Source: Bradyrhizobium sp. CCBAU 53340
GTDB lineage: Bacteria; Pseudomonadota; Alphaproteobacteria; Rhizobiales; Xanthobacteraceae
DNA length: 64,000 nt
Direction: 5' to 3'
Assembly: GCF_015291645.1 (NCBI RefSeq)
Contig: NZ_CP030055.1
Span: forward strand, 930,001 to 994,000
A program made the position numbers and the translations under genes. Positions 8,406 through 60,200 of this stretch are shown piece after piece. Below the pieces are notes generated by a model. The model saw only the letters and a list, made by a program, of their open reading frames with translations, ran no database searches and was not told the origin of the DNA. How positions within the stretch are numbered: position 1 is the stretch's first letter; each line of letters starts with the position of its first letter.

Positions 8406-8448
8406 GCAGGGCTCCAGAGTAGCTGGAGCCCACCGCTATCCCCGGCCC

Positions 8449-8466
8449 TTAACACTTGTGTGACAT
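8449..8466 (-). promoter_or_regulatory. weak Pho-box-like site upstream of phnC
   Basis: On the minus strand ATGTCAC ACAA GTGTTAA has two 7-base units at the 11-base spacing of a Pho box, but only the first is a good match. It is about 45 bases upstream of phnC and points at it. Support is mainly the position. Confidence 0.35.
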
Positions 8467-8503
8467 GCGCAATGCGGTGCGGCGATCCTACACACCTCAT
8501 CCC

Positions 8504-8532
8504 CTGTCATCGCATCGTCATGACGATGTCAT
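8504..8532 (+). promoter_or_regulatory. Pho-box-like triple repeat upstream of acyltransferase-phnM operon
   Basis: Three half-sites CTGTCAT, TCGTCAT and ATGTCAT follow each other at exact 11-base intervals. The first pair matches the Pho-box consensus at 12 of 14 positions and a third unit extends it. It ends 47 bases before the chosen start of the acyltransferase gene and points towards it. PhoB is known to bind such 11-base direct repeats; here it would switch on phnM under phosphate limitation. Confidence 0.68.
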
Positions 8533-8579
8533 CGAGCCGCTCGAAGAGATGCGTCCGCCCTCGAATTCCCGGATGCAAC

Positions 8580-9236
8580 ATGGCCAAGGTGCTATCGGTC
8601 GAGCCGACCATCGATCCTTCGGCGAAGCTGCGCGAGACCAGGCTCGGCGCCTACACCGAGGTCGGCGCCCGCACGATCTTGCACGAAGTCGCGATGGGCG
8701 ACTATTCCTATGTCGTCAACGACGCGCAGATCACCTACGCCACCATCGGGAAGTTCTGCTCGATCGCGGCGATGACGCGGATCAATCCCGGCAATCATCC
8801 GATGCATCGTGCCACGCAGGCGCATTTCACTTACCGTTCAAGTGCCTACTTTCCGGGCGAAAGCGATGACACCGATTTCTTCGACTGGCGGCGCCGGCAT
8901 CACGTCCATATCGGCCATGACGTCTGGATCGGCCACGGCGCGATCGTGCTGCCGGGACGCAACATCGGCACCGGCGCGGTCATTGCGGCGGGCGCCATCG
9001 TCACCAAGGACGTGCCGGCCTATACCATCGTCGCCGGCAATCCCGCGCGGATCGTGCGGCGGCGGTTCTCGGAAGAGATTGCCGGACGGCTGGCCAAGCT
9101 GGCATGGTGGGACTGGGATCACGACAAATTGCGCGACGCGCTGCCCAATTTCCGCACGCTCGCAATTGAAGATTTCCTGTCGGCATACGAAGCAGGGAAT
9201 CCTTCCTGTGCGAGCAAACAAAGCGCGGTCGCGTGA
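8580..9236 (+). CDS. phosphonate-cluster hexapeptide-repeat acyltransferase
   Basis: Left-handed beta-helix acyltransferase, 218 residues, of the type found within phn clusters (often labelled chloramphenicol-acetyltransferase-like). Hexapeptide repeats run through the middle (for example [20 protein letters not shown]) and the C-terminal half ([20 protein letters not shown]). The catalytic-type His follows in the same region. The ATG at 8580 was chosen because the family begins here; an open frame extends further upstream but through the Pho-box region. The stop overlaps the phnM start (GTGA). The substrate is not established; acetylation of aminoalkylphosphonates, as done by the unrelated PhnO, is a guess. 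Confidence 0.85.
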
Positions 9237-35781: not shown

Positions 35782-35857
35782 GCCCAGGTAGCTCAGTTGG
35801 TAGAGCATGCGACTGAAAATCGCAGTGTCGGTGGTTCGATTCCGCCCCTGGGCACCA
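35782..35857 (+). tRNA. tRNA-Phe (GAA)
   Basis: Starts GCCCAGGTAGCTCAGTTGGT, has anticodon loop CTGAAAA giving GAA for phenylalanine, and ends with an encoded CCA. Acceptor GCCCAGG/CCTGGGC pairs fully. Position after yacG is conserved in alphaproteobacteria. Confidence 0.98.
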
Positions 35858-36836: not shown

Positions 36837-36850
36837 GTGGGAGAGCGAAG

Positions 36851-37153
36851 ATGGCGCCATCGGTGGATCTTGCGGCCCTGGCGATTGACGATTTCACACC
36901 GCATCTTGGCGCGACCTTCGACCTGCACACCGCGGACGGTCGCATTGCACTGCGGCTTGTCCGCGCCGATCGGGCTGGCGTGAGCGGACGCCGCGGCGGC
37001 GCTTTCTCGCTGTTGTTCGCGAGTTCGCAGGGACCCTGGCTGCCGCAGGCGATCTACCTCGTCGAACACGAGGCGGTCGGCACCATGGAGCTCTTCCTGG
37101 TCCCTATCGGGCCGATCAAGGAAGGCAACGGCTATCAGGCGGTGTTCGCGTAG
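36851..37153 (+). CDS. DUF6916 family protein
   Basis: Protein of 100 residues, mostly beta, resembling DUF6916, a family that I recall beside tail-collar-domain genes. Its first half is LAALAIDDFTPHLGATFDLH and its end GPIKEGNGYQAVFA. No signal peptide. It starts 15 bases after the terminator with GGGAGAGCGAAG before the ATG. Its 3' end overlaps the convergent GNAT gene by 19 bases. Possibly a chaperone or accessory of the collar proteins; this is a guess from context. Confidence 0.75.
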   Translation: MAPSVDLAALAIDDFTPHLGATFDLHTADGRIALRLVRADRAGVSGRRGGAFSLLFASSQGPWLPQAIYLVEHEAVGTMELFLVPIGPIKEGNGYQAVFA

Positions 37154-37665
37154 TCGAGGGACGGCGGCGCAGTCCAGCGCATCAGGTCGTAGACGCCCTT
37201 GTCTTGCTGGGTGCTGAAGCCCAGCCGGCGATAGAGCGCCATCGCCGGATTTTGCTTCTCGACGTGGATTTCGACGTCACGTCCGGCACTGGCGGCCTCA
37301 TCGAGGAGGTCGCGCAGCAGCGCTTCGCCGAGGCCGCGGCCGCGATGGTCCGGCAACAGCGCGATGTCGATGATGCAATGCCGGTCCGGCAGCCGCTCAA
37401 GATACAGCCGGCCGATATCCGCGGCGCTGCGCATGATGATTAGCCAGTCCGCATCAGGATGATTTTGCTGATAATGCACATGTTGGGCCCGGAACTGCAT
37501 GTCCAGGAACGCAGCCTTCTCGGCATCGCTCCAGGGGACCGGCGCCAGCTCGTCGATGCGGGTTGACGCATAGATGCGTGCCAGCAGAGGCAGATCGGCG
37601 TCGGTGACCCGCCGGAACGTCAGGCCGGCTTCGGCCGCACGTCTCCAATCCGGCAACTCTGCCAC
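37135..37665 (-). CDS. GNAT family N-acetyltransferase
   Basis: Acetyltransferase of 176 residues with the acetyl-CoA motif LLPDHRGRGLGEALLRDLLD and a conserved YRRLGF near the end. It begins 9 bases after the third tail-collar gene, so it is the last gene of that operon. RimI-like enzymes act on protein N-termini; modification of the collar proteins is an attractive but unproven role. Confidence 0.86.
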   Translation of the reverse strand: MAELPDWRRAAEAGLTFRRVTDADLPLLARIYASTRIDELAPVPWSDAEKAAFLDMQFRAQHVHYQQNHPDADWLIIMRSAADIGRLYLERLPDRHCIIDIALLPDHRGRGLGEALLRDLLDEAASAGRDVEIHVEKQNPAMALYRRLGFSTQQDKGVYDLMRWTAPPSLDYANTA

Positions 37666-37674
37666 CTCCGACGC

Positions 37675-38202
37675 TCAGCCGCGCGGTGGGAAGATGCCCT
37701 GGAGGGCGATGATGTAGGTGAGCGCCAGGAACGGCTGCAGGTTGTTGTGCGGCAGCGAACCGCCGGTCAGCGATAGCGTCTGCGGATGCATCGTGACGAG
37801 ATTGGTCGACACGTTCGATTGATAGTTGGTGCCCGCCTTGGATTTCGCGAGAAACTCCGTTGGAGCCGGCTGCTTGAGTTCGCCCACCTCGGTAGAGCCC
37901 TGGATCAAGTGGTTGTGGATCGGCATTTCCGACGTGAGCAGGGTGACGTTGGGGGCGCCGGCGCTCTCGCCGATAAACCGATCGGTCAGGCCCGGGCCCT
38001 GCCCCTGGCCGATCGGCACGGAGGCCTGCAGATTGGGCAGAGCGAAGGTCGATTTGCCGTCGCCGCCATACATCGTGCCGAGCAGTGAGAACAGCGCCGT
38101 GTTCTGCGAGATCGGCATCAGCTGACCGTTGCACTGCGCCCAACCGGTGGGCGCGAAGCTACCGGCGAAAATCCTGATCTCGGCGAGGAACGGATCCGAC
38201 AT
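37675..38202 (-). CDS. tail-collar domain protein (third of three)
   Basis: Protein of 175 residues of the phage tail collar / microcystin-dependent protein type. Shared features of the three paralogs are the opening PFLAEIRIFAGSFAPTGWAQ, GTMYGGDGKSTFALPNL, an MPIHNH segment with H-x-H, and PHNNLQPFL near the end. In T4 gp12 an H-x-H of the collar domain binds metal at the trimer axis. No signal peptide. It follows the second paralog by 10 bases. The variable part lies between HNH and PHNN. Confidence 0.88.
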   Translation of the reverse strand: MSDPFLAEIRIFAGSFAPTGWAQCNGQLMPISQNTALFSLLGTMYGGDGKSTFALPNLQASVPIGQGQGPGLTDRFIGESAGAPNVTLLTSEMPIHNHLIQGSTEVGELKQPAPTEFLAKSKAGTNYQSNVSTNLVTMHPQTLSLTGGSLPHNNLQPFLALTYIIALQGIFPPRG

Positions 38203-38212
38203 GGATGAACTC

Positions 38213-38734
38213 TCAGGTTTGCGAGGGGAAGATGCCGTTCAGCGAAATGATGAAGTTGATGCACAGGAAAGGCATCATGTTCTCGTGCGGCTGGTTGCCG
38301 CCGGCAACCTGGATAGCGCCTGCCGTCAGCGAAGGACCGGCGACGTCGATGACATAGGATTCAATCGTCGGCGAGGTCGCCATGATGTTGCCGTTCGGGC
38401 TCGGATTGGTCGCGGCGGCGGTGGAGGCCGCGAAGTTGTGATTGTGGATTGGTATCGTCTGCGTCGTCAGCGTGACGCTCTCGACGCCGCTCTGTTCGCC
38501 GATGACGTAGTTCTGGGTGATCAGGGGCCCCTGGCCCTGATGAATCGGAACGCGCCCACGCAGGTCGGGCAGCGCGAACGTGTTCTGCCCATCGCCCCCA
38601 TAGGTGGTGCCGATCAGATTGAACAGCGCTTCATTGTCCGAAATCGGCAGTAGCGAGCCATCGCAGAGGTTCCAGCCGAGCGGGGCAAAATTGCCGCCGA
38701 ACATCCTGATCTCGCCGATGAAGGGATTGCTCAT
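38213..38734 (-). CDS. tail-collar domain protein (second of three)
   Basis: Paralog of 173 residues. It opens MSNPFIGEIRMFGGNFAPLG, has GTTYGGDGQNTFALPDLRG, the H-x-H motif in IPIHNHNF, and NQPHENMMPFL, with the end NGIFPSQT. An Ala/Thr-rich stretch follows HNH. No export signal is visible; secretion, if any, needs another route. It is 9 bases downstream of the first paralog and 10 upstream of the third. Confidence 0.88.
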   Translation of the reverse strand: MSNPFIGEIRMFGGNFAPLGWNLCDGSLLPISDNEALFNLIGTTYGGDGQNTFALPDLRGRVPIHQGQGPLITQNYVIGEQSGVESVTLTTQTIPIHNHNFAASTAAATNPSPNGNIMATSPTIESYVIDVAGPSLTAGAIQVAGGNQPHENMMPFLCINFIISLNGIFPSQT

Positions 38735-38743
38735 GGCAGGTCT

Positions 38744-39250
38744 CTAATTCTGGGACGGGAAAATGCCCTGCAGGGCGATGATGAAATTGACGACAAGGAA
38801 CGGCTGCCGGTTCTCGTGCGGCTGGCCGCCTCCGTTATTGGAGATCGTGCTGGGGGCGAGCGTTGTGGTGCTGGCAAAGGCTCCGTAGGGCTTGCCGACC
38901 TCCTGCGCGAGGATGTTGTTCTGCACGGTATTCTTGTCGCCCTGCGTGTCGGACGCGTTGACGATGTGGTTGTGCGTCGGCATTTCGTTCAGGACCAGCG
39001 TATGAAATTCCTCGCCGCCGATCTGGCCAGGAATGAATCCCGAGCCCTGATGCATCGCCGCGCGTCCCCGCAGATCCGGCAGAGCAAAGTTGGTCTGGCC
39101 ATTGCCGCCATACGTCGTGCCGAGCACCGAGAACAGCGCCTGGTTCTGATTGATCGGCAGCAGCTGCCCGTTGCAGAACGCCCAGCCCTTTGGCGGGAAA
39201 TTCCAGGAAATGAGTTTGACTTCACCGAGGAAAGGCTCACCCACGCTCAC
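38744..39250 (-). CDS. tail-collar domain protein (first of three)
   Basis: Paralog of 168 residues and first gene of the collar-collar-collar-GNAT operon. It opens MSVGEPFLGEVKLISWNFPP and has GTTYGGNGQTNFALPDLRG, MPTHNH and QPHENRQPFL. AGGAGGTGAG directly precedes the start region. The 152 bases upstream are AT-rich (TATAAAATTAGA on the plus strand) and probably hold the promoter. No tail, capsid or integrase genes are near. Confidence 0.88.
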   Translation of the reverse strand: MSVGEPFLGEVKLISWNFPPKGWAFCNGQLLPINQNQALFSVLGTTYGGNGQTNFALPDLRGRAAMHQGSGFIPGQIGGEEFHTLVLNEMPTHNHIVNASDTQGDKNTVQNNILAQEVGKPYGAFASTTTLAPSTISNNGGGQPHENRQPFLVVNFIIALQGIFPSQN

Positions 39251-39402: not shown

Positions 39403-42400
39403 TCAGGTCAGCAGACCGAAATGGAATGGCGCGAGATGGAAGAAGTCCGGAAGGTTGAGCGCGCTGACGGGATGCGTCTCGGGACTAACGATGACATCGG
39501 CGTGTTGCAGCGCAGGTGATCCGCTTGCCGGGTTGGAGAAGACAAACAGGTCGCCACCCTGATGGGTATCGCCGATGGGCGTTCCTCCCGGGCCGGGCAG
39601 CGTCGGTGCGACGCTGGGCTGGAAATGGTTGGCCGCGAACCATGCGAAGGAGAACGAATCGGCGTTGTGCAGCGCTGCTTGCAGGGCGGCGAGCCCGGCG
39701 CTCCACGCTGGCGCGCTCGACACCGGCGTCGACGTTGTCGGTGCAGGAATGTGAGGCTCCGAGAATACGAAGTTATGGCCACCATTGTCGCTGACGAAAC
39801 TGTTGCTGTTTTGCGAGGTCGTCGGCTGTAGGGGCGTCGCTTGCGCCACGTCGGCCGGGGTGACCAGCCGGCGCTCACCAGTGTCAAGGTTGAGGTTCAT
39901 CACCCCGTCCAGGCTGGTGTCGGGCAGGCCGAGCACGTGGCCGAGCTCGTGCTCGAGCACGGTGAGCAGATCGATATGGCTCGCCGCGTCGCCGCTGGTC
40001 GCGACCAGGTCGTTCGGCGCGGCGGTCGAGTGGTACTCGCTGTTGTCTGATGGCGTGGGATCGACGTACCAGCCCCAGCCCGCCGCATTGACATCGATCG
40101 TGATGCCCTTGGCGCCGGTGTTGGCGAGATAGCCGGAGTCCGGCAGGTCGGCGATCGACAGCTTGGTGTTCTCGAGCTGGGCGATCTGCGCCGCTGATGC
40201 ACCGGCATCGGCCCAATGCTGGATCGCCGCCACCAGGACCGGGGCCAGCGCATTCATGGTGAGGTCCGTACCGCCGTCATGGCCCTGGCCGTGCAGCGCC
40301 ATCTGCGGCGTTGCCGGTGGCGTCGGTGGCGCCGCATGGTTGAAGGATACGTTGGTATCGACCCGCATTGTGCTGCCGATCGAGTTGCTGGCGGTCAGGC
40401 CGTTGTCGGACGCGAGCGTCGCGGCGTTGGCCTGCGTCACATTGACCGGATCGGTGCCGGCGGGTGCTCCGCCGACGCGCGCGGTCGTAATCGTGCCGGT
40501 GCCATCGGCATTCGTGAAGGAGTTGCCGGACAGCAGCAGGTTGATGGCGCTGTTGCCGGCCGTGTTGGAATCGAGCACGGTCAAGCCACGGTAATCGAGA
40601 ATGTCGCGGATCGTGTTGCCCGTCACGGTGGCATTGAGGATGCTCGCCGAGTCCTGCGTGCCGACCGCGTTGGTGATCGCAATGCCGTCGGCGCCGTTGC
40701 CGTCGCCGCCAAGGCTCTGGATGATGTTGTTGGTGATGCTCACCGTCATCGTGCCGCTGGCAGCCTCGTCATGGATGTCGAAGCCGCTGCCGATCTGGAC
40801 GCCGGAATCCTGCACGCCCTGGATGCCGACGGTATTGTTGTTGAGGAATCCGGTCACGGTGCCGGTGCCGAAGTGATTGGCCGCGATGCCGACCGCGCGG
40901 CTGTTGGTCAGCGTATTGTCGTTGACGTCGAAATTCAGCGACGCCGAGCCGGTCTGGGTCAGCGTGATGCCGGAATCGTTGCTGTCGAACGTGTTCTTGC
41001 CGCCGGCGGTGCCGTCGCCGAGATGGACGTTCAGCGTGCCGTCGTCGACCGAGCCGGCAAAGCCGGTCGCGGTGAAGTTGGCCGGGGTCAAGATATTGCC
41101 GCTGAAGGTGTTGTTCGTCGCATGCACGGTTGCGGTCGGTGATCCTGCGATGCCGCCGGTGGCCAGGTCGATCTGGAATTGGTCGCCGGCATGGGTCGAG
41201 CCACCGTTGTTGGAGAAGGTGCTGTTGGTCACCACCAGGTCGGTCAGCGTGCCGCCGGTGTTCTTGATGAACACGTTGTGGACGTAGGAATTGCTGACCG
41301 TGAGGTTGTTGAAAGTGGTGGCGTGGCTGGCGTTGCCGGTCAGCTCGTAGAGATAGATGTTGCCTTCGCCGTCGTTGGCGGTCGAGTTGCCGTTGCCCGA
41401 GACGGTGTCGCCGTTCAGCGCGAGGCCGTTGATCGTGTTGCCGAGGATACCATCGCCCTGACCATTCTTGATGTTCATGTTGCTGAGGCTGACATCCTGG
41501 GTGGAGGTCAGGCTCACGCCATCGCCGGTCGAGTTCTGGATCGTGCCGCCCGAGCCGGCAGTGGTGCCGACGCCGGTCACCGCGAGGTGGCCGCTGGTGC
41601 CGGTGTTGTTGAGCACGATGCCGTTCACGGCGCCGTCGGACGAGATGTCATGGAAGGTGACGTTGCTCGAACCGATCGTGGTGTTGGTAATGTTGAGCGC
41701 GGTACCGGTCGTGGTCGTCAGGTGGTTGGTGCCGGTGACATTAAGCGTGCCGCCGCCGGTCGCGGTGAAGGCGTTCGACGTGCCGGTCGACAGGCCGATG
41801 CCGCCACTGAAGCTCATCGTGGCGCCGGTGTTGTTCGTCAGCGAGATGCCGGTGCCGCTGCTGCTGATCGTGCCGGTGAAGCTCTGCGTGCCACCGGTCA
41901 TACTGGAGATCGAGAGGGTCGAGCCGGTATTGTCTGAAATCGTGCCGTCGTCGGTGAAGTTCAACGTGCCGGATGACAGCGACACGTCGGAGCCGGAGGC
42001 GCCTGAGATCGCGCCGCCATGGGCGTGGAAGGTGCCGCTGGCGCCGTTGATGACGATGCCGTTGGAGCCGCCGCTCGAGGTGAGGGAGCTGAAGTCGTAA
42101 GTCAGCGCGTTGCCGGAGCCGGTGATGCTGATCGCGCCGCCGCTGCCGGTGTTGTTGATGACACCCGATTTGACGTTATCGATCGTCGAGGTGCCGACAT
42201 TGGTGCCCGACAGCGAGAAGGTCGAGCTTGAGCCGAAATCCACGCCCTGGATGTTGTTGCCGCTGGCAAGGATGACGCCGCCGTCGATCACGGCATTGGC
42301 GCCGCTGGCCGACACCAGCGTGACCGTGCCGGCGCCGCCGCCGCCGTCGGGCACGACGAGGCCGGCGCTCTGGCTGATCAGCTGCTCGTTGTTCTCGAGC

Positions 42401-45400
42401 TGTAGGCCGCCGGCCGGTGCGGTGTAGTGGCTGGACGAGGTCTCCAGGAAGATGGTGTCGCCAGTGCCATCGACGCCGCCGGCGCCGTTGAAGTGCGAGA
42501 GGTTGTTGAACGGATTTTCCGACGAGCCGTCACCATCGGTCGCCGCATCGGCGTTGACGTACCAGACCTTCGGCGTGGTGACGTTGATGGTGATCGTGCC
42601 GGTTCCGAGGCCGACGCCCGAAGCGCCGGCGTTCTGGTCCGAGACCTGGTAGGTGAAGGAATCCGAGCCGGTGTAGCCGACCGGCGGCTTGTAGATGAAG
42701 TCGCCGTCCGACTGCATGGTGACGGAGCCGCCATGCGCGGTCGCGATGTTGCCGGCGACCACGATCAGCGGTCCGGGACCGTCGACGTCGCTGGCGCCGC
42801 TGAGCAGGCTGGCGGTGATGGTCTTGTTCGGACCGGTGGTGCTCGGCGCGCCGTCGGTCGGGTCGTTGACCACGAGGTCGGTATTGCCGGTCGCGCTGTT
42901 GACGCCGTTGAACGTGAAATTGCTTGCGACCGGCGCATCGTTGACGCCGTTGACGGTGACGTGAAGCGTCGCCGTCGAGGTGTCGCCGGCCTGATCGCCG
43001 TGCAGCGTATAGGGAACGTCGAACGTCGCGGCCTCGCCGTCCTTCAGATGCTGGAAGTCGGAGCCGAGATTGACCACGATCTGGTTTGAGCCGTTGACAC
43101 TGACCGCGATATCGGTGACGTCGATGTTCTCGCCCGCGGGCCCAACCACGTTCGTGACGGTGCCGGTCGTGATGTTGTTCGGCGCGCCATGGTCGGGATC
43201 GAGCGTGTCGTTGGTGAGCACGGTGAAGGCATGACCGGACTGGTCTTCGGTCATGGTTCCGGAATCATCGACCGCGACCGGCACGTCGTTGACGCCGTCC
43301 ACGGTGACGACCAGATTGGCAGACGAGGTTTCGCCGGTATCGCCGGTCAGCGTGTAGGGTACCGTGATGGTGGCGTGCTCGCCGACCGCCAGCTGCTGGA
43401 AGTGCGCGTTGTTCAGCGTCACCTGCACCTGGTTCGCAACGATCGAGGCGGTCGCGTCTGTGTTGGCGAAGGTCTCGCCGGCCGGACCGGTGACGGTGAT
43501 GCCCGCCGGCCCAAGCGTGATGACGTTCGAGGCGGTGGAATCCGGATCCTGGCTATCGTTGGCGATGACGTTGAAGGAGGTCGGCGCATCGTCCTCGGTC
43601 ATCGTACCGGTGTCTGCGACGGCCACCGGCAGATCGTCCGCACCATGGATGGTGAAGGTGATCGTTGCGTTGTCCTGCAGGCCGCCGGTGTCCTGGATCG
43701 TGTAATTGAACTTGTCCTGGATCGTATTGGCCGACGTATGCAGCGCCTGCACCTGCGCGTCGTTCTGATTGACGGTGTAGGTGTAGGAGCCGTCGCCGTT
43801 GAGATGCAGGGTGCCGTGACTTCCGATCAAATCCTGGCCGACCGTACCGGTACCGGTGGATGCACCTTCGGAGCCGGTATGGACCGCGACGACGGTCAGT
43901 GCGGTGCTCGGATCCTCCGCGTCTGTGTCCTGGAGGGCGCCGGCCGAGCCGGTGCCGAGGATGACGTTGCCCGACGGATTGAAGCCGGCAACCGAATTGT
44001 TGGCGCCGCCCGCTTCCGTGGCCGAGAGCGAATCGTCATTGGCGACGGGCGGCGTATTCTGAAGGACGTTGATGGTGAAGGTCTGCTGGCTGGTCAGCGT
44101 GCCGTCGCTGGCCTGAACCGTGACGTCGAAGGTCGGGCTGCCGGCGTTGTAGGGAATCTTGGTGGAATCGGCGACCTTCACCTGGCCGGTCGACGCATCG
44201 ACAGTGAAGCCGCCGCCGGAGGTGTCGCCGACCAGCGAATAGGTCACCGCCGGTCCGTTGACGTCGATCGAGGATGCGGTCACGCCGGTATAGGTGCCGA
44301 CCGGGGCATTCATCGAGACCTGATTGACGGCGCCGTCGCTGTCGACCGGGGTCGTTGGCGCGACGTCGGTGACGGCGATCGTGAAGCTCTGCGAACTGAT
44401 ATCCGTGCCGTCGCTGGCGGTCGCGGTCACGGTGTAGCTGTGGCCTGCGCCCGAGGTCTCGAAATCGATCTTGGTGGAATCGGCAACGGTGACGACGCCG
44501 GTGGTCGCGTTGATGGTGAAGCCGCCGCCGGAGGTGTCGCCGGTCAGGCTGTAGGTCACGGCCGGGCCGTTGACGTCGGTTGCGGACGCGGTGACGCCGA
44601 CGGTCGAGCCGTTGGCCGCACCTTCCGCGATCGTGTTGGTCGCCGCATCGGCGTCGACCGGGGTCGTCGGCGGGACGTCGCTGACATTGATGGTGAAGGT
44701 CTGCGAGCTCGTCAGCGTGCCGTCGCTGGCCTGCGCAGTGACGGTGTAGCTGTGGCCTGCGCCCGAGGATTCGAAATCGATCTTGGTGGGATCAGCGACG
44801 GTGATGACGCCGGTGACGCCATTGATGGTGAAGCCGCCGCCCGAGGTGTCGCTGGTCAGCGAGTAGGCCAGGCCGGTGACGCCCGAGCCGTTGACGTCGC
44901 TTGAGGCGACGGTGATGCCAACGGTCGAGCCGGCGGCAGCGCCTTCCGCGACCGAGTTGGCGGTGGCGTCGTTGTCGATCGGAACCGACGGGGCGACGTC
45001 CGTCACCGCGATGCTGATGGTTTCCGAATTGGTCAACGTGCCATCGGAAGACTGCACGGTGATGGAATAGGCGTGACTCGGCGCGCTCTCGAAATCGATC
45101 TTGGTCGAGTCGGCGACGGTGACGACGCCGGTGGCGGCATTGATGGTGAAGCCGCCGCCCGAGGTATCGCCCGTCAGCGAGTAGGTCACGGCCGGGCCGT
45201 TGACGTCGGTGGAGATGGCGGTGACGCCGACGGTCGAGCCGTTGGCTGCACCTTCCGTGACCGTGTTGGCCGCGGGATCGTTGTCGCTCGGCGGCGTGGG
45301 CGCGACGTCATCGACGGCGATCGTGAAGCTGCTCGAGGTGGTCGTGGCGCCGTTCACCGCCTGCACGGTGACGCCATAGCTGTGGCCTGCGCCGCTGGTC

Positions 45401-46404
45401 TCGAAGTCGATCTTGGTCGGATCGGCGACCGTGACGACGCCGGTCGCGGAATTGATCGTGAAACCGCCGCCCGAAGTATCGCCGATCAGCGAATAGGTCG
45501 TGGCCGGGCCGTTCGGATCGATCGCGGACGCGGTGATGCCGACGGCGGTGCCTGCCGCGGCGCCTTCCGAAACGTGATTGGCCGCGGCATTGGTGTCGGT
45601 CGGCGCGCCGATCGTGACGTCGTCGACCCCGATGGTGAAGGTCTGCGAGCTCGTCAGCGTGCCGTCGCTGGCCTGGATCGTGACCGAATAGGCGTGGCCT
45701 GGCGCGCTCTCATAGTCGATCTTGGTTCCGTCAGCGACGCTGACCACGCCGGTGTGAGGGTCGACCTTGAAACCGCCGCCGGAGGTATCGCCGGTGATTG
45801 CAAACGTGACGGCTCCGCCGTTGATGTCGGTGGAAGAAGCCGTGATGCCGACGAGGGTGTTGATCGCAGCGCCTTCCGCAACGTGGTTGGCGGCGGCATT
45901 GCTGTCGACCGGCGTCGACGGCGCGACGTCCGTCACGTGAATGGTGAACGACTGGGTCGAGGTGAGGAATCCGTCGGAGGCCTTCACGCTGATGGTATAG
46001 GCATGACCGGGCGCGCTCTCGAAGTCGATCTTGGTTGGATCGTTGACCGTGACCACGCCGGTCGCGGCGTTAATCTTGAATCCGCCCCCTGAATTGTCGC
46101 CGACCAACGAATAGGTGACGGGACCGATCGCGCTCGTCGCCGATGCAGTGATGCCGACGGGGGTGTTCGCGACCGCGCCTTCGGCAACGCTGTTCGCTCC
46201 GGCGTTGGCGTCGATTGGCGTTGATATTGAATCGTGCACCGGCGGCCAGGGCGTGCCGGGCGGGCAGCCGAGATACAGCGCCTTCAGGCCGTAGGTCGCC
46301 GCGAACGTCGATGCCGCATCGTCGAGAACGATGTTGCCGTACGAATCCAGGATGAGGGGCGGTCGGGTGAGGCCACCGGAGGTGTAGGCCGGAATGGTCG
46401 TCAT
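39403..46404 (-). CDS. giant cadherin-repeat / beta-helix protein with C-terminal metzincin site
   Basis: Protein of 2333 residues from the ATG at 46404, with AGGAG 8 bases upstream. After about 60 N-terminal residues (LILDSYGNIVLDDAASTFAA) come seven cadherin-like repeats of about 100 residues, each with TYSLxGDTSGGGFxIN and VADxTKIDFE. Then follow VCBS-type repeats ending GVND, a Gly/Asn/Thr-rich region beginning KVWYVNADAATDGDGSSENP that looks like a right-handed parallel beta-helix, and, near residue 2150, HELGHVLGLPD with the Met-turn GVMN. That is the metzincin pattern HExxHxxGxxD, so it may be an active zinc protease. There is no normal signal peptide and no RTX repeats, so the export route is unknown. 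The upstream gene encodes an AraC/TPR-like regulator. Confidence 0.87.
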   Translation of the reverse strand: MTTIPAYTSGGLTRPPLILDSYGNIVLDDAASTFAATYGLKALYLGCPPGTPWPPVHDSISTPIDANAGANSVAEGAVANTPVGITASATSAIGPVTYSLVGDNSGGGFKINAATGVVTVNDPTKIDFESAPGHAYTISVKASDGFLTSTQSFTIHVTDVAPSTPVDSNAAANHVAEGAAINTLVGITASSTDINGGAVTFAITGDTSGGGFKVDPHTGVVSVADGTKIDYESAPGHAYSVTIQASDGTLTSSQTFTIGVDDVTIGAPTDTNAAANHVSEGAAAGTAVGITASAIDPNGPATTYSLIGDTSGGGFTINSATGVVTVADPTKIDFETSGAGHSYGVTVQAVNGATTTSSSFTIAVDDVAPTPPSDNDPAANTVTEGAANGSTVGVTAISTDVNGPAVTYSLTGDTSGGGFTINAATGVVTVADSTKIDFESAPSHAYSITVQSSDGTLTNSETISIAVTDVAPSVPIDNDATANSVAEGAAAGSTVGITVASSDVNGSGVTGLAYSLTSDTSGGGFTINGVTGVITVADPTKIDFESSGAGHSYTVTAQASDGTLTSSQTFTINVSDVPPTTPVDADAATNTIAEGAANGSTVGVTASATDVNGPAVTYSLTGDTSGGGFTINATTGVVTVADSTKIDFETSGAGHSYTVTATASDGTDISSQSFTIAVTDVAPTTPVDSDGAVNQVSMNAPVGTYTGVTASSIDVNGPAVTYSLVGDTSGGGFTVDASTGQVKVADSTKIPYNAGSPTFDVTVQASDGTLTSQQTFTINVLQNTPPVANDDSLSATEAGGANNSVAGFNPSGNVILGTGSAGALQDTDAEDPSTALTVVAVHTGSEGASTGTGTVGQDLIGSHGTLHLNGDGSYTYTVNQNDAQVQALHTSANTIQDKFNYTIQDTGGLQDNATITFTIHGADDLPVAVADTGTMTEDDAPTSFNVIANDSQDPDSTASNVITLGPAGITVTGPAGETFANTDATASIVANQVQVTLNNAHFQQLAVGEHATITVPYTLTGDTGETSSANLVVTVDGVNDVPVAVDDSGTMTEDQSGHAFTVLTNDTLDPDHGAPNNITTGTVTNVVGPAGENIDVTDIAVSVNGSNQIVVNLGSDFQHLKDGEAATFDVPYTLHGDQAGDTSTATLHVTVNGVNDAPVASNFTFNGVNSATGNTDLVVNDPTDGAPSTTGPNKTITASLLSGASDVDGPGPLIVVAGNIATAHGGSVTMQSDGDFIYKPPVGYTGSDSFTYQVSDQNAGASGVGLGTGTITINVTTPKVWYVNADAATDGDGSSENPFNNLSHFNGAGGVDGTGDTIFLETSSSHYTAPAGGLQLENNEQLISQSAGLVVPDGGGGAGTVTLVSASGANAVIDGGVILASGNNIQGVDFGSSSTFSLSGTNVGTSTIDNVKSGVINNTGSGGAISITGSGNALTYDFSSLTSSGGSNGIVINGASGTFHAHGGAISGASGSDVSLSSGTLNFTDDGTISDNTGSTLSISSMTGGTQSFTGTISSSGTGISLTNNTGATMSFSGGIGLSTGTSNAFTATGGGTLNVTGTNHLTTTTGTALNITNTTIGSSNVTFHDISSDGAVNGIVLNNTGTSGHLAVTGVGTTAGSGGTIQNSTGDGVSLTSTQDVSLSNMNIKNGQGDGILGNTINGLALNGDTVSGNGNSTANDGEGNIYLYELTGNASHATTFNNLTVSNSYVHNVFIKNTGGTLTDLVVTNSTFSNNGGSTHAGDQFQIDLATGGIAGSPTATVHATNNTFSGNILTPANFTATGFAGSVDDGTLNVHLGDGTAGGKNTFDSNDSGITLTQTGSASLNFDVNDNTLTNSRAVGIAANHFGTGTVTGFLNNNTVGIQGVQDSGVQIGSGFDIHDEAASGTMTVSITNNIIQSLGGDGNGADGIAITNAVGTQDSASILNATVTGNTIRDILDYRGLTVLDSNTAGNSAINLLLSGNSFTNADGTGTITTARVGGAPAGTDPVNVTQANAATLASDNGLTASNSIGSTMRVDTNVSFNHAAPPTPPATPQMALHGQGHDGGTDLTMNALAPVLVAAIQHWADAGASAAQIAQLENTKLSIADLPDSGYLANTGAKGITIDVNAAGWGWYVDPTPSDNSEYHSTAAPNDLVATSGDAASHIDLLTVLEHELGHVLGLPDTSLDGVMNLNLDTGERRLVTPADVAQATPLQPTTSQNSNSFVSDNGGHNFVFSEPHIPAPTTSTPVSSAPAWSAGLAALQAALHNADSFSFAWFAANHFQPSVAPTLPGPGGTPIGDTHQGGDLFVFSNPASGSPALQHADVIVSPETHPVSALNLPDFFHLAPFHFGLLT
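44055..46221 (-). repeat. seven tandem cadherin-type coding repeats of about 310 bases
   Basis: Within the giant gene, units of 300-320 bases recur with closely similar DNA; for example the plus-strand phrase GTGAAGCCGCCGCC occurs in most units at the same place. The seventh unit is most divergent (no EGAA, and KIPYNAG in place of KIDFE). Such repeats can expand or contract by recombination. Confidence 0.85.
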
Positions 46405-47045
46405 GAAAAACTCCTGCAACCGGCGTTGCGCCGATTACTCGCTACGCTGGTCTGACGAGGATGTTTATGAGCTGGATTACACGCTGAAATTGATCGTCAC
46501 TCGAAGCTACGTCGGTCGAGCGGGACCGGCGTCGATCGGGCCGACGCGCGTGGTGCGATGAAAGTGCTGGATCAGAAAGCGGATGGTCGGCGGAATCGAG
46601 ATCGGCCGTCATTGCGCGAACGCCTCACACACAGAGAATCGACGCCGCGGCCGGGAGCAAAAACAAGGTTCAATAATAAAGCGGCGACCAAGAAAATTAA
46701 CGCTTTGGCAACCAAGACGTTTAGTGAGGCTGCAACCAGGAGTCAATGTGGCGAAAATGTTCTCTCGCTACGCTTGGTAGCAGCCTTAACGTGGCTGCTG
46801 TCTTCGCGGTCTGAAGCTAGCCGCAGCTGGTCCAGAGTAATATGTCATTGAGATATCGCTATAATTTCTGAAGCGATCGGCTCGGGCCGTCACCGCTGAT
46901 ACTTCGCCATGTCCTCGTCGGCGTAGCTGCGGATTGCGCCTGAAAATTCGCCTTCGAACGTTCCAGCCGAGGACCTGCTGTTCAGCCATCACTTTCTCTA
47001 CCGACGCCGTGACGAGCGCCGCGTCAGTGGCTTGGTTGCGCCATT
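46405..47045. other. 641-base gene-free region upstream of the giant cadherin gene
   Basis: No supported gene on either strand. The part near 46665-46730 is AT-richer than the surroundings (CAATAATAAAGC, AAGAAAATTAACG) and probably holds the promoter of the giant gene. A small hairpin AGCAGCC-TTAACGT-GGCTGCT lies at 46779-46799. The long gap suggests complex control of the gene downstream. Confidence 0.5.
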
Positions 47046-50933: not shown

Positions 50934-51293
50934 ATGATCGATACAAGCCAGATCGAGATCCAATTTCCTCCCCATGACGGTGTCTTCTCGGCATCGAGGG
51001 ACGGCCGCTACGTATCGAATCATGTGCTCACGGCGCCGGATGACACGCACGTCGGCACGCTCTCCGTACTTAATAGGTAGACGGGGACGACGATGGTCGC
51101 CTCAGCGCCTGAAAAGGCTTCCATGGCATTGTCGCGGACGCGACGCATCCGACGGTGCGAGTGCCACAGCGAACTTCAGGGGAATTGCATGAAGACGATC
51201 GCTGGCGTCGCCGCGGATTCCAGCGCGGCCGCCTCGGCTCAAGCCGTCACAGCTGAAGGCTTTGCCACTCCGGATGGCAGGAGGAATGCATGA
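50934..51293 (+). pseudogene. second decayed propeller copy with in-frame TAG
   Basis: From the ATG at 50934 the frame gives SASRDGRYVSNHVLTAPDDT and LSVLNR, then TAG at 51078-51080, then TGTTMVASAPEK. NR-stop-TGTT lines up with the DRTTGTT of the intact and truncated copies, so the TAG seems to have replaced one codon. The frame continues to a TGA that overlaps the ATG of the giant gene. A second start, MKTIAGVAADSSAAASAQAV at 51189, repeats the MKTI opening of the 50059 copy. Confidence 0.6.
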
Positions 51294-54200
51294 GGAACTT
51301 CGTTCTCGAGCCTAACACCGGCAATTTCGCACTCTATGATCTCTCGGACGACGGGCGTTATTTGCTCCTTGCCTCAGGTACGAACCTCTACGTTATCGAT
51401 TCACAGACGGGCGCAACACAAACTGTCGCGAGCGTTCCGAGCGGCACCAGCGCTCAATTCGGGCAAGCTGACCTCTCACAAGATGAGCGATATGTCGTCT
51501 ACCGCACCGAGGTGACTACTCAAACGGACATCTTCACGGCTCCGGTCAGCACATGGTCCATCAACGTCACCGATCGGACGACGGGGCTCAGCCGCGTGGT
51601 GTATTCCGACACGGACAACGGCAAATTGCCAATAGGCGGCTTCGAGATCGACCAGGCGGTGATGTCGCCTGACGATCAGTCGGTGTATTTCGTAAGCAAT
51701 TTTCCGGATGTCACCGGCGCTCACATTGTGGATCAGCTCTCCGATGTTCCGCTTAACGTGTTCAAACTGGATCTCCAGACAAATGCGATCCAGGCGGTCC
51801 TCCCGCAGAACCTCGAAGAGATCCCCAATCTTACCGTGTCGCCCGGAGGGAAGTATCTCGTTGTTGCAGCGAGCGGCAGCACCCAGCTCGTCAATATTGC
51901 CACCGGCAACGTCGACCTCGTGCTGCCGGGCCAGTTTGCACCATCCGTGTCGGCCGACGGTCGCTTCGCTGTCTTTGATACCGACCAGTCGCTCGTGCCC
52001 CAGGATACCAACGGCGTCCACGACGTCTATCTGACGGACCTCACCACCGGCGCAATAACGCTAGTTTCCCAAACGGCTGCAGGGGTGGTCGGCAATGGCG
52101 TTAGTGATGCCTACGAGAACACGCCGCAGATCTCTGCCGATGGCAGCGAGGTCCTGTTCGAGACCACGGCGTCGAATATCAGTCCGGGAGCGACGGCTGG
52201 GGCTCCGCACCTCATGCTGTGGGAACGCGGGACCGGCTATCTGAATGACATCACGACCATCATTGACAATGGGACTCTAGTCGATAGCTACCGCCTCTCA
52301 GCCGACGGCCACACGATTGCGCTCGAGACCTCGAAGAGTCTCGTCTCCGCTGACACCAACACCGATCCCGATACCTACCTGATCCACATCACGCGTCCCG
52401 TTCTGACCATCGATGCGGTCAACGGTGACGGCTTCGTCAACGGCGCGAACGGCGACTTCGTCACGATCTCCGGCACGTCCGATGCCTACGGCCAGACCGT
52501 CGACATCACCGCGGCGGGCAAGCACGTTTCGGCGGTGGTGCAAGCCGACGGCACCTGGAGCACCAGCATCTTCGCCCAAGGCCTTGGTGACGGGGGCTAC
52601 GACATTCACACGCTCGTCAGCGATGGTTTGACCGCAACCGCGGACGGCGGCTTTACCATCGACCGCACGCCGCCCCAGCTCACGCTCACGTCGGTGTCCG
52701 GCGATAACTACATCAATGCGGCCGAACTTACGCATGCGGCGATCAACGGCACGGTTCTGATCGCCGACCCCGCGGGCCCGGGCTCGGTCGCAGGCCAGCT
52801 TCAGATCAAGATCGACAACGGTCCAAGCTTTGACTTTGCCACGCAGGCGAGCGCTACGGCCGATCCGCAGACCTACTCTCACGACATCAGCGCGTTGGGG
52901 CTCTCCGACGGCGCCCATACCGTCACGGTGACGGCGATCGACGAGGCCGGCAACAAGACGGTGGTGACCCAGCCGGTCATCATCGACACCACGCCGCCGC
53001 AGATCGCCATCACGTCGGTCTCGGGCGACGACGTCGTCAACAGCAGCGAGATCAAGACCGAGCAGGGCGTGCATGGCACGTGCGATGAAATCGGCGCGAC
53101 CGTCGATGTGCTGATCGATGGCGTCGAGGCGGGGCAGGCCGTGGTGCAGGCGGATGGGTCGTGGCTGACGACCGTCAGCTTCGCCGGCACGGCCACGGGC
53201 ACACACGACGTCACCGCGAAGGTCTTGGACGAGGCCGGCAATCCGGGCCGGGCCGACGCCAGCGTGTACGTCGACACGGGGGTTGCCGTGACGCAATTGT
53301 CGGCCGGGCCGACCGGAGCACAGGGCGGCGGGCAGGGCGTGCTGTTTCCGGAGCTGTCGGCGGACGGCACCAAGCTGGTCTTCACCGGGCTCAATTTCAA
53401 CCTGATGTCGATCGCGACCGGCTCCGACGGCGCGCAGGTCTACATCAAGGATCTCACGACCGGCGCGATCTCGTTCGCGACGCCCGATCCCGGCCAGAAT
53501 GCCGAATTCGGCGCGATCTCGCCGGACGGACGCTACGTCGAATTCGTCACCAATGCCGGTCTCGATCCGGTCCATCAGTCGTTCGGCGACCCCGCGCCGG
53601 GGCTGTATTTCACCTACACCAAAGATCTGACCACCGGCACCGTCTATACGCATATTCAGGTCGACGACGGGGCCGACGGCACTGACCCCGATACGCTCCA
53701 TCCGGGGATCACCGGCGGCTACCTTGGTCTAGGGAACTACCCGGACGACACGCCCATCGCCAAGCTGCCGGTTTTTCCGCTCGCGATCACGAACGGCGGC
53801 TATGCCCTCGAGCTCGTGTCCCAGCTCACCGGGGACCAAGTCGCACAGCCGGTCGACTTGACCACGGAGATCAGGGAGAGCTTCAACCAATCCAATCTCA
53901 GTGCCGATGGCACGCCATTCTTTGCTTCGGGCAATTATCTGGGTCCGGACGCATCACCTCCCGCTCCCTACTACTTTCAACAGGAATATGCCCCGCAGAT
54001 ATCCGCGGACCACTCGGTCGGGGCGTTCGAAGCGCTCTTCTATCCCGAGCAGGTGGACAACTCGACCTATCCACCCCCGGTAACGGTAGGCCCCCCCACG
54101 ATCCCGGAGATCTACGCGGGTCCGCTGTTGTTCGACGGCTTTGATAATCCCATTTCGTATCCTCTTGCCTCGTCGTACGCCGACGGCACGCCGATGCCGT

Positions 54201-57200
54201 TCGGTGCGATCGATCCGGCACTGTCGGCGGACGGCAAGTTCGTCGCGTTCTGGTCCTGGGACAACAACGACAAGCCCGAAGTTTACGTCAAGAACCTGAC
54301 GACGGGCGCACTCAACATCGCCTCCTCGGATGCGCACGGCACTGCCGGCGTCGACAATGCGTCGGGCACCTTCAACGCCGGCTTCAATTCCATCGCAATC
54401 TCCGCCGACGGCCGCTACGTCGCCTTCACCAGCGACGCGATTCTGACGGCGGACGATTCCGGCACCGGCGCCGACCTGTTCGTGAAGGACATGCAGACCG
54501 GCGCGATCCAGCGCGTCCCGCTTCCTGCCGGCACGTTCGCGAACGATCTTTCGGCGCAGCTCACGATGACCGCGGACGGACAGTATATCGCGTTCACCAC
54601 CACCGCCGGCCTTGCAGCGATGGACAGCAACCATGTGGCCGACGTGTACGGCGTATCGCTGGCCTCGCTCGGCGCGACGCCGCCGCAGATCGCGATCGAT
54701 ACGGTGGCGGGCGACAACCGCATCAACGCTTCGGAGTTGTCGAACCACCTTCTCGTCTCCGGCACATCAGATGCGATCGGACAGACCGTGACGCTGTACG
54801 TCGATGGCGGCTTCCTGCCCGGCGTCGTGGTCGGCGCCGGCGGCACCTGGTCCACCACGATCGACACCAACGGCCTGGTCGACGGCGTGCATCAGTTGCG
54901 CGCGACGGTGACTGCCACCAATGGCGCGACCAACACCGCCGGCGATCTCGTCACGGTCGACACGGTTGCGCCCACCGTCACGCTCTCCGCGGACAAGACG
55001 CAGCTCGCCCCCGGCGAGACCGCGACCATCACGGCAAGCTTCAGCGAAGGCATCGGCAATCTCGCGAGCGACAATTTCTTTGCCGCCACCGGCGGCACCG
55101 TGAGCCAGGTCCAGTTCGCGAACGATCACACTGTGACTGCCCTGTTCACGCCGAACGCCGGCGCCACGACATTCAGCGTTTCGGCAAACGCCGGCACTGC
55201 GTTTGACTTCGCCGGCAACGCCAACCTCGCCGGCAACGCGATCGTGCTCGACATTGCGTCGCCCAATAACGCCGCGCCGGTCTTGTCGGCCGTTTCGACG
55301 CCAAGCCCTGTGGCCGAATCGGCGAATGCGAGCGCGCAAGCCGTGACCGTCAACGGCACGCTGACCGTACTGGACGCCGACGCCGGCGACACGCTGACCG
55401 CTGGTGTGGCCGGCCCCGCGACGATCACGTTCAATGGCCTCGCGTTGCCCGCGCAGTTCGCGGAGCAGGTCGCGGCCCTGACGGCGAGCGGCGCCTTGAT
55501 TTTCGGTGGGCCGATCACTGCCACGGGCGCGGCCCAGACCATCACCTGGAGCTACGCGCCTGCCGCGACGAATCTCGAATTCCTGTCGGACACCGACACG
55601 CTCACCATCACGACACCGGTCAAGATCGACGACGGAACGGCCGACAGCGTGACTGAGAACGTCGTGGTCACCATCACCGGGGTGAACGATGCACCGACGG
55701 TGACGGGACCTGATACGGCCAGCGGGACGACCGGAAGCGCGATCGCGCTCGCCGGGCTCTCGGTGTTCGACCCGGAGGTGGCGGCCGGCAGCCAAACCCT
55801 GAGGGTGGACGTGCATAGCGCTACCGGCGCGCTTGCGGTGGATCCGGCCAGCGGCGCGACGGTGACGCCGGACCCACGCGATAGCAGCATCACCATCGAC
55901 GGCACGCTGGCCCAGATCAACGCGGCGCTGGCGAGTCTCACGTTCACGAACCCGTCGATCGGGACGTTCGACGTTGTCGTGCAGGCCCGCGACAGCGTCG
56001 GCGCGTTGTCGACGGCGCAGCACATCACGGTGACGACGACGGATACCCCGCCGACGGTGACCGCACCGGCTGAAGCCAGCGGTGTCGTTGGAACGAAGAT
56101 CGCGTTTTCCGGGCTGTCGGTGTTCGACCCGGAGGCGGCGGTGGGCCAGTCCGTGACCGTGGACGTGCAGAGCAATACCGGCACGTTTGCGGTGGATCCG
56201 GCCAGCGGCGCGACGGTGACGCCCGATGTACGTGATAACGGCATCACCATCGGCGGCACGCTGGACCAGATCAACGCGGCGCTGGCGAGCCTCACGGTGA
56301 CGAGCCCGACGACCGGTACGTTCGATGTTGCAGTGGTGGCCCGAGACAGTTTGAACGTGTCGTCGGCGCCGCAGCATATCGCAGTGACGACGACGGCGGA
56401 TACCGCGCCGACGGTGACCGCACCGACTGAGGCCAGCGGTGTGGTTGGAACTAGGATCGCGCTTGCCGGGCTGTCGGTGTTCGACCCGGAGGCGGCGGTG
56501 GGCCAGGCCGTGACCGTCGACGTGCAAAGCGCCGGGGCGCTTGCGGTGGATCCGGCCAGCGGCGCGACGGTGACGCCGGACCTGCGTGGTAGCGGGATCA
56601 CCATCGGCGGCACGCTGGACCAGATCAACGCGGCGCTAGCGAGCCTCACCGTCACGAACCCGACGATCGGTACGTTCGATGTCGCCGTGGTAGCCCAGGA
56701 CAGTGTGAATGTGTCGTCGGTGGTGCAGCATATCGCGGTGACGACGACGGCGGATACCGCGCCGACGGTGACGGCACCGACTTCGGCCAGCGGAATGGCC
56801 GGGGTACCGATCGGGTTTACCGGACTGTCGGTGTTTGATCCGGAGGCGGCGGTGGGCCAAGCCGTGACCGTGGACGTGCGGAGCAATACCGGCACCTTTG
56901 CGGTGGCCGAGCTCAGCGGCGCGACGGTGACGCCGGACCTACGTGGTGACGGGATCACCATCGGCGGCACGCTGGACCAGATCAACGCGGCGCTGGCAAG
57001 CCTTACCGTCACGAATCCGACGGTCGGCACGTTCGATGTCAGCGTGGTGGCCCGGGACAGTGTGAACGTGTCGTCGGCGGTGCAGCATATCGCGGTGACG
57101 ACGACGCCCGCCCCTCTGGTGATACCCGCGGGCTCGACGTTCACGGTCGCGGTCGGAGAGACGCTTCAGGCGCTTTCGCTCACTGTCGGCGTCGGTGCCA

Positions 57201-60200
57201 CCCTCGACGTCTCTGGCGCGCTCTCGATCCAGAACGGTAGCCTCAGCGGCGCCGTCTTGAACAGCGACACGATCAAGGTGGCGCTGGGTGCCACGTTCTC
57301 CGACGACCTGCAGAACCTCGCCGGAGCGTCCTTCACCAATGACGGCACGACGGCCGACACGGTCGCGCTCAATGCCGGCACCATCACCAACACGGCAACA
57401 GGTGTCTGGACCGGTGACGTCGTCGCCGGCGCCAACGGCACGGGCGGCGACATCATCAACCAGGGCGCTTGGAACGGCGCCGCCAACAACGATGGCGGCA
57501 CGATCGAGAACGCCGGCACGTGGACCGGCGCCATCATCGACACGGCTGGCACGTTCACGAACACCGGCAGAGTCGATGGATCGATCACAATTGGCGTCGG
57601 GGCTACCCTCCAGAACGGCGTTGGCGGCACGAACGGCTCGCTCGGCACGGCCACGATCACGGACAACGGCACGCTGGTCGTCGACCGCTCCGACGCCTTC
57701 ACGCTCGCCGAACCGATCTCCGGAAGCGGCGCCCTGACAGTTGCGGGTACGGGCATCCTCGCGTTGTCGGCCATCGACACCTACACCGGCGCCACGAAGA
57801 TAATGACGGGCAGCACGTTGGAACTCGCCGCCGGAGCCTCGATCTCGGCGTCCGCGGTCGTTGCCGACCAGGGAACGCTCGTCATCGACGCGCTGGCCGG
57901 CCCGACGGCACTCACGGACCTGACCGGAGCAGGCACCGTCACACTCGGCCCGACCAGCCTGCAAATCACCAACTACTCGAGCGTCTTCACAGGCACCATC
58001 TTGGCCAACGGAGGACAGAGCCTCGCCTTATCCGGCTCCAACATCGACCTGTCGGGCGCCTCCGTGGCGGGGGACGGATGGTCAACCGCACAGGTCGCGA
58101 TCTCGAGCCTCGCTGGCAATATCACCGGCTCCAATGTGAACGATTACATCAGCTACAAGGCCGATGGTCTCACGCATGCGATCAACGGCGGCGGCGGCAC
58201 CAATACGCTCGTGTTGAGCGGGAAGCTAGCCGATTACGCCGTCAGCGATGTCGTCGATGCCACGCACTTCACGCTCACGGACGGCGTCGCTGGACGCGAC
58301 GGCACGGACCAGCTGAGCAACATCGGATTTCTCGTGTTCAACGGCGACGGCGGACGGGTCGTCGCCGCGGCTGACCTCATTCCTACGGTCTCGATCACCG
58401 GAGGGACGGTCGAAGAAGGCGATGCCGGCACGACGATCCTGAGCTTCACAGTCACCCGTACCGGCGGGACGGGCGCGTTCGACGTATCGTATGCGACCTC
58501 CGATGGTAACTTCGTCGCCGACTTCGTCGGTCCCGTCCCAGCGTTCGATGCGACCGTCGCCGACAACGACTACATCGCAAAATCGGGAACACTGCATTTC
58601 GCCGATGGTGTGAACACGCAAACGATCGATATCGCGGTCGTCGGCGATACCAAAGTCGAGAAGGACGAGATCTTTTACGTTACCTTGTCCAATCCTACCA
58701 ATGGCGCAGCGCTCGCTCCCACCACCTTCGATAGCGCATTTAATCCGCTCGATGGTGGCGCGATCGGCACCGGTGTCATCGCCAACGACGACGTGCCACT
58801 GCAGCCAGCGGGCACGATCAGCATCACCGGCGGGACGGTGACGGAAGGAGACCTGGGCACGACGAAGGTGGTCACCTTCACGGTGACCCGTACCGGCGGC
58901 ACCGGTGCTGCATTCGACGTTTCATACGCGACGTTCGACGGGGGAAGCAGCAAGATCATCGCCGATGCGATTGGCGGGAACCCCGGCAATTTCGCCACTG
59001 TAGCCAACAACGACTACATAGCGAAATCAGGCACACTGCATTTTGACGCGGGCGTGAACACCCAGACCATCGATGTCACCGTCGTCGGCGACGACACTTT
59101 CGAGAAGGACGAGGTGTTCGGCGTCAGCCTATCCAATCCGACCAGCGCCGCCGTTCTCGCCGATTCCGGCAATCCCCTCCTGCCTGCCGGCACTGCGGAC
59201 GGGGTCATCCTTAACGATGACCAAGCCGCCGGCACAATCTCGATTTCGGGCGGCTCGGTCGTCGAGGGTGGTGATGGCTCGACCAAGACCTTGACCTTCA
59301 CGGTCACCCGCGCCGGAGGCACCGGCGCGTTCGACCTATCCTATGGGACCGTCGACGGCGGCCTCCCGTATCTCGCCGCTCAGGAGATATTCAACGATGA
59401 GGAGGCAATCGCCGGCATCCAACTTCCTGGCGAACCCACGCCTTCCTCCATCGCCGGCAAAGACTACGTCGCGACGTCCGGAACGCTGCATTTCGCGAAA
59501 GGGGTCAACACGCAAACTATCGAGGTGACCGTCATCGGCAATGGCATCGTTGAGCCTGACAAGATCGTCGGCATTGCGTTGTCCAATCCAACGGGCGGCG
59601 CCGTGCTGGCTGACACAGTCATCCCCAGCAACCTCGTCACGACCACCTCGGCAGATCCAACTTTCACAGCCACCTTCGCGCCCGGGATCGCCGACGGCAC
59701 AATCGTCAATGACGATGGGCCGATCGTGATCCCCAGCGGCACAACCCTCTCCATCGGGGCCGGAGACACGCTTCAAGTGCAATCGCTCACCGTCGCCCCC
59801 GGCGCGCAATTGCAGATCGCCGGCACAGTTTCGGTACAGGACGGCGGCGTCAGCGGCACGGTCGTCAACGATGGCATCGTCAATGTGCTGCCTGGTGCCA
59901 GCTTCTCCGACGATCTGCAGAACCTCGCCGGGTCTTCCTTCACCAACGACGGCGCGACCGCCGACACGGTCGCGCTCAATGCCGGCACCATCACCAACGC
60001 GGCAACAGGCGTCTGGACCGGCGACGTCGCCGCCGGCGCCAACGGCGTGGGCGGTGACATCATCAACCAGGGCGTCTGGACCGGCACCGCCCACAATGAT
60101 GGCGGCACGATCGAGAACGCCGGCACCTGGAAAGGGACCATTATCGATACGGCGGGAACGTTCACGAATACCGGCAGTATCGACGGATCGATCACCATTG

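Follow-up and report, generated by a model that had tools for sequence, protein, structure and literature searches.

A six-gene cassette in Bradyrhizobium sp. CCBAU 53340 probably encodes a bacterial, non-phage device in which three different collar proteins, A, B and C, make an obligate, metal-pinned fibre knob that would work outside the cell on a surface or matrix ligand. Judging from the sequences, we give this whole statement a probability of about 0.6, and we hold the heterotrimer taken by itself to be likelier than that. The linkage of the genes, the three subunit types, the invariant HxH motif, the single-chain versions and the co-travel with a giant gene can be read in the genes themselves; the heterotrimer itself, the metal, location and ligand of the knob, and the roles of the accessory proteins, are what we infer.

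Organization of the locus

The window, meaning the whole stretch of DNA that was analysed, has 64,000 nucleotides and is G000:C1:930001-994000 within a genome of 8.7 Mb. Three collar genes lie there on the minus strand, the first (type A) at 38747..39250 with 168 aa and a PF07484 score of 97.3 bits, the second (type B) at 38216..38734 with 173 aa and 99.5 bits, and the third (type C) at 37678..38202 with 175 aa and 91.2 bits, all 3 above the curated Pfam cut-off of 24 bits for the Collar domain family. Identity to C is 48% for both A and B. Gaps of 9 and 10 bases separate the collars, and 9 bases more lead to a GNAT acetyltransferase gene at 37138..37665, also on the minus strand (PF13302, 50.1 bits against a cut-off of 25.4). 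Convergent with it, in a tail-to-tail overlap of 19 bases, is the DUF6916 gene at 36851..37150 on the plus strand (PF21880, 92.6 bits against a cut-off of 27). A sequence-only reading of this DNA had described three collar genes of nearly equal size 9-10 bases apart, followed by a GNAT gene and facing DUF6916, and the coordinates, spacings and Pfam matches confirm that description. As to the extent of the gene set, it was right about the collars, GNAT and DUF6916, but it overlooked a giant gene of 2338 aa that travels with them, at 39406..46419 upstream of the collars and on the same minus strand, whose matches are of cadherin/VCBS type (PF00028 at 186.2 bits, PF17803 at 66.8 bits, and TIGR01965).

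The true start of collar A may be GTG 39244 and not 39250, because a Shine-Dalgarno-like stretch abuts 39250 and the neighbours begin M-S-x-PF. The genome of the window has no further collar or DUF6916 genes that we could find. A tRNA-Phe at 35782-35857 adjoins the cassette, and the window has a second giant gene at 51290-62359 (3689 aa) with Calx-beta, Big_12, Big_13, RTX and PD40 matches.

Linkage and distribution of the gene set

Across 299 genomes sampled over the phylum, DUF6916 is found in 36 and a collar in 72, and 37 of the 40 DUF6916 matches have a collar within 6 kb, a count taken over all 40 matches and over a collar listing that is not exhaustive and from which the 8 weakest rows were omitted, none of them in a genome with a DUF6916 match. 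The resulting DUF6916-linked collar clusters number 35; three collars are present in 22, two in 3 (one of these, L066, being cut by a contig end), one in 10, and more than three in none. The collars are accompanied by a GNAT of the window's family in 37/50 phylum and plasmid loci and in 40/40 loci from the window's genus. In that genus, DUF6916 occurs in 43/242 genomes, and 40 of 44 places were read as loci (of the other four, one is the window itself). The order collar, collar, collar, GNAT, reverse DUF6916 is kept in 38/40, with the reservation that genus loci are related and do not count as independent cases. The linkage that had been proposed from the window alone thus recurs in other genomes, and because the same set recurs in so many of them, its co-occurrence is beyond chance.

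A wider scan of genome contigs found 460 relatives, of which the best 80 were taken and 79 loci kept; the scan patterns were built from the window's own collars, and these loci consequently lean to its subfamily. The record titles name Acidobacteria, Verrucomicrobia, Actinobacteria, Chloroflexi, Thermaceae, Bacillus-type bacteria and Bacteroidota, along with Oculatella, Schlesneria, Ignavibacteria and Proteobacteria, which we take to group into about ten phyla. The closest named collar relative found is from Bradyrhizobium iriomotense (L134) at 82% identity. Collar number was counted in 66 of the 79 loci, leaving out 13 that come within 1.2 kb of an end, and is exactly three in 65 and six in the other one. 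The same 66 loci have GNAT near in 61, DUF6916 near in 53, and HxH in every collar in 65. On these sequences we regard the collar trio as real and old, and in the sampled subfamily as fixed in number and kind.

Some loci have additional genes. Between the collars and GNAT, L035 (10904-12229), L045 (8321-9637), L074 (10071-11555) and L078 (10126-11343) encode a further protein, some 400-490 aa long and with a weak FG-GAP match at most. In Paenibacillus, a PhoX-type protein with a Tat signal adjoins the module (L156, 4258-5934, checked with Pfam), and similar ones are seen in L160, L172, L176 and L185.

Relation to phages

The collar genes match the Collar domain and PHROG tail families, and a rival reading is that the cassette is a remnant of a cryptic prophage or tailocin. 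The flanking genes that were scanned are hisD, UPF0262, LMWPc, maf, yacG, LysR, AraC and enzymes, and there are no phage genes among the ten neighbours scanned. Among 50,697 phage records, none matches DUF6916. Collar B does match 379 places in 340 phage records, but at no more than 38.0% identity in the 20 rows listed, and it also matches 136 places in 60 plasmid records. Together with the recurrence of the same set in distant bacteria, this makes a phage remnant exceedingly improbable; the module is not one, and the claim of the sequence-only reading that no phage is nearby stands for the genes scanned. A search of six proteins against PADLOC-DB gave no anti-phage defence match, the GNAT alone aligning in part at 16.6 bits.

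Three collar types and the HxH motif

The position of a collar in the triplet goes with its sequence. Slot labels mapped on a tree of 111 collars require 15 changes, compared with a mean of 53.4 after shuffling, and slots 1 and 2 are not single clades. In a slot comparison from which seven loci were excluded manually (L052, L058, L059, L060, L062, L063, and L066), the best match in another locus is to the same slot for 84/99 collars, and for slot 3 in 33/33, while the best match overall is a neighbour in the same locus for only 1/99. Window collar A clusters with slot-1 collars elsewhere and B with slot-2 collars. Profiles for types A, B and C were trained on 15 triplets chosen from that tree, the window included, and applied to the 71 of 79 contig-scan loci with exactly three full collars. 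One of each type is found in 71/71 of these, and in 38/38 genus triplets; labels assigned independently would include all three types in 6/27 cases. The subunit order in the contig-scan triplets is ABC in 49, BAC in 20 and BCA in 2. Among the more divergent phylum and plasmid triplets only 6/21 resolve into one of each type with these profiles; such triplets may be too distant from the training set.

The sequence-only reading had all three window collars keeping the HxH, as they do (3/3). In an alignment of 36 diverse collars, HxH (H97 and H99) is among 10 invariant columns. Searched as a profile, these 36 find 8kec, a long tail fibre of a phage (E = 1.2e-10), and the T4 gp12 entry 1ocy (E = 4.5e-9), with HxH aligned on the HKH of 1ocy; alignments to 1pdi and 5iv5 end before HxH. 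The fibres of pyocins and phages surround a single ion with six histidines of this motif, contributed by three chains, and in the crystal of gp12 the site contains zinc (PMC6116203).

Single-chain relatives

In L060, three collars are joined to RTX repeats within a single protein. When its three-collar part was used as the query, 1971 of 8000 scored candidates were relatives, and each of the best 120 has exactly three collar cores, in a set whose ranking by likeness to a three-collar query favours three and whose members are related, not independent. In 111/120 the order is C-N-C-N-C-N, meaning that the C-terminal strand motif precedes the first core and does not follow the last; the same order is found in 109/120 at a threshold of 3 bits and 90/120 at 8 bits. 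The simplest reading of this order, among others, would be a circularly permuted ring of three. HxH in the best 120 is all-or-none, with all three collars having it in 35 proteins, none in 85, and mixed cases 0; a stricter pattern gives 0, 1, 2 and 3 HxH in 85, 1, 13 and 21 proteins. By pattern, RTX-like parts are found in 47/120, PEP-CTERM-like parts in 26/120, and neither in 47/120. L055 has a different fusion, a reading frame that joins the GNAT to collars B and C.

Heterotrimer or homotrimers

Since the three collars are fixed in number and kind, HxH is invariant, and three-collar chains have HxH in all collars or none, we infer that A, B and C form a heterotrimer. The alternative is that they are three separate homotrimers, giving knobs of different specificities. 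Phage knobs of this kind are homotrimers in the accounts given in parts of PMC3004832 and PMC6116203, and a homotrimer can evidently serve in this setting, since 10/35 DUF6916-linked clusters have a single collar and 3/35 have two. Against separate homotrimers stand a collar number that in 66/66 loci is three or six and never two, four or five, a triplet that in 71/71 loci holds one of each type, and fusions that among the best 120 have exactly three collars to a chain with HxH all-or-none. We therefore consider separate homotrimers unlikely. The heterotrimeric tip suggested by the sequence-only reading is favoured by inference, from the one-of-each triplets (complete in the contig-scan and genus sets, 6/21 in the divergent set) and from the three-collar single chains.

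The heterotrimer would be built as follows. A, B and C would assemble 1:1:1 into one knob of the T4 short-tail-fibre type, with each of the three different chains contributing its HxH histidines to a single metal ion on the axis. Such a knob would be asymmetric and present three unlike faces, which would set it apart from the homotrimeric ones of phages. Where related proteins have all three collars in a single chain with secretion or anchoring parts, that chain would make up the same knob.

The giant gene beside the triplet

A giant was called where a frame of at least 900 aa with less than 5% Arg lies no more than 2.5 kb from the module. By that test a giant adjoins the module in 38/53 contig-scan, 12/19 phylum, 6/8 plasmid and 35/35 genus loci, compared with 5/100 pseudo-modules in 20 control stretches; it is absent in 15/53 contig-scan loci. 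In the genus, 37/40 loci have an adjoining open frame of 1000 aa or more. In some loci different genes take its place, for example lasso-peptide-type genes in Azospirillum. In the Azospirillum oryzae plasmid locus L081 (3495-13909), such genes flank the collar triplet and are annotated as asparagine synthetase B, lasso B2, PqqD and 2OG-Fe(II) oxygenases, with lookalikes by eye in L039, L050, L056 and L057.

The edges of the cassette can be seen by aligning the window with the genus loci. On the left, DNA similarity starts at 36850-36995, beside the DUF6916 start codon at 36851, in 35/40, and three loci (L111, L129, and L132) have some similarity further left. On the right, the N-terminus of the giant is present in only 11/40 loci, the stretch covered or the gene being different elsewhere, and in 10 of those 11 similarity ends at 46406-46496, near the giant start at 46419, although two of the ten (L117 and L125) have too little sequence beyond to judge the end. 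In L111 it continues to 46807. The ends near 46224 in the remaining genus loci stem from repeats of the giant. Downstream of DUF6916, 33/37 genus loci have one common neighbourhood, and the neighbourhood of the window, by the tRNA-Phe, is found only in L111. Because similarity stops at the edges of the cassette and the flanking neighbourhoods differ, the same six genes occupy different sites within the genus. Transposase-like genes, recognized by eye, adjoin the cassette in L129 at 7461-8647.

The domains of the giant vary. The window giant has cadherin and VCBS, that of L037 has cadherin together with Big_9, and one from Paenibacillus combines Big_2 with three SLH anchors; on plasmids the giants carry annotations as YDG, choice-of-anchor or Ig-like proteins. 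The window giant has a metzincin-like HELGHVLGLPD motif close to its C-terminus, and a HExxHxxGxx[HD] pattern is present in most giants of the genus loci and in none of the other lineages listed; Pfam calls no peptidase domain in the window giant. That giant has no RTX match, and there are no T1SS genes among the neighbours scanned; three PrtD-type transporters are encoded elsewhere in the genome.

Where the module works

GNAT enzymes work with acetyl-CoA in the cytoplasm. The collars and GNAT might then be a cytoplasmic metal-bound complex, for example an acetylation scaffold, that is not displayed at all. The need of GNAT for acetyl-CoA, the absence of a signal peptide by eye on unfused collars, and the joining of collars B and C to GNAT as one protein in L055 all speak for such a complex. 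Against it are the RTX-like and PEP-CTERM-like fusions, the adjoining giants, which are low in arginine and have surface-type domains, and the Tat-like signals found by pattern on 14/152 DUF6916 frames, and we think it rather improbable that the complex stays inside. Five of the Tat-bearing candidates were scanned, with those beside the module in L181 (9057-9446), L208 (9054-9464) and L138 (9345-9776) above the DUF6916 cut-off and those in L146 and L201 just below. The window's own DUF6916 and collars have no signal by eye. An AlphaFold2 model of DUF6916 has a pLDDT of 90.8.

Secretion-type genes (HlyD, an ABC transporter with C39, and OEP) are near the module in L043, L047, L067 and L068. These neighbours, the RTX-like and PEP-CTERM-like fusions, the giant with SLH domains and the Tat-like DUF6916 signals hint at a site outside the cell, and since the single-chain relatives carry secretion or anchoring parts, the knob itself is most likely there too. 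A binding role is suggested by the kinship to phage fibres and the surface-type partner. Hence, the knob is probably extracellular and probably binds a surface ligand; it would be placed beside or on the giant cadherin-type protein, with a surface or matrix as its ligand. A cytoplasmic stage fits this picture as well, because of the B-C-GNAT fusion in L055. GNAT and DUF6916 would be dedicated accessories whose roles are guesses, our guess for DUF6916, as the most likely, being an aid to assembly or export. The parts that the sequence-only reading gave them, chaperone for DUF6916 and modifier of the tip for GNAT, are likewise conjectural.

A larger proposal would make this a widespread surface machine, in which A:B:C is assembled around one metal in the cytoplasm, possibly acetylated there, exported folded, in some lineages on a DUF6916 partner with a Tat signal, and set at a giant cadherin or Ig stalk as a binding knob with three faces. 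We offer it tentatively, as a proposal more doubtful than probable.

Comparison with known systems

The open-access papers searched gave no description of the module and none of DUF6916, and nothing that joins a phage tail collar to cadherin, to an adhesin with type I secretion, or to extracellular PEP-CTERM, consistent with the view of the sequence-only reading that the system is undescribed. We know of no obligate heterotrimer of a phage-type fibre knob elsewhere. Public records give genes of this kind the label microcystin-dependent protein or tail fiber. Should our main reading be right, they are a bacterial system across about ten phyla with an obligate heterotrimeric knob of phage type. 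It would also supply a context for DUF6916 and one GNAT family, and its predictions are simple and testable: three subunits, one metal, one particle.

The name microcystin-dependent/tail fiber protein (COG4675) is on many collar relatives and plasmid copies, without a stated function in listings, and it does not extend to the triplet, GNAT or DUF6916. The open-access literature on tail collar domain with microcystin-dependent protein concerns, in the part retrieved, a brucellaphage. COG4675 is in both tables of a soil metaproteome, from Acidithrix, Pedobacter and Ramlibacter (PMC5579227, tables), which means that relatives are made in soil.

The window giant shares cadherin and VCBS domains with the rhizobial cadherin/VCBS/RTX large adhesins, but is without an RTX match. 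Such large proteins occur in the Rhizobium etli extracellular proteome (PMC9855851), where the passage on them has no collars, and the retrieved parts of PMC4545795 and PMC2953401 have no mention of a collar. The mosaic adhesive trimer (MAT) proteins of Bdellovibrio are likewise bacterial, fibre-like, in some cases phage-like, and surface-displayed for recognition, though their abstract is without collar triplets, GNAT or DUF6916 (PMC10769870), and the comparison is by description only. The knob of the T4 short tail fibre gp12 (1ocy and 1pdi) is akin in sequence and, in the 1ocy alignment, in the position of HxH; it is trimeric and binds metal (PMC3004832 and PMC6116203). The gp12 knob is a homotrimer on a phage baseplate, whereas the collars come from a bacterial cassette in which no phage genes were found, and from three different genes.
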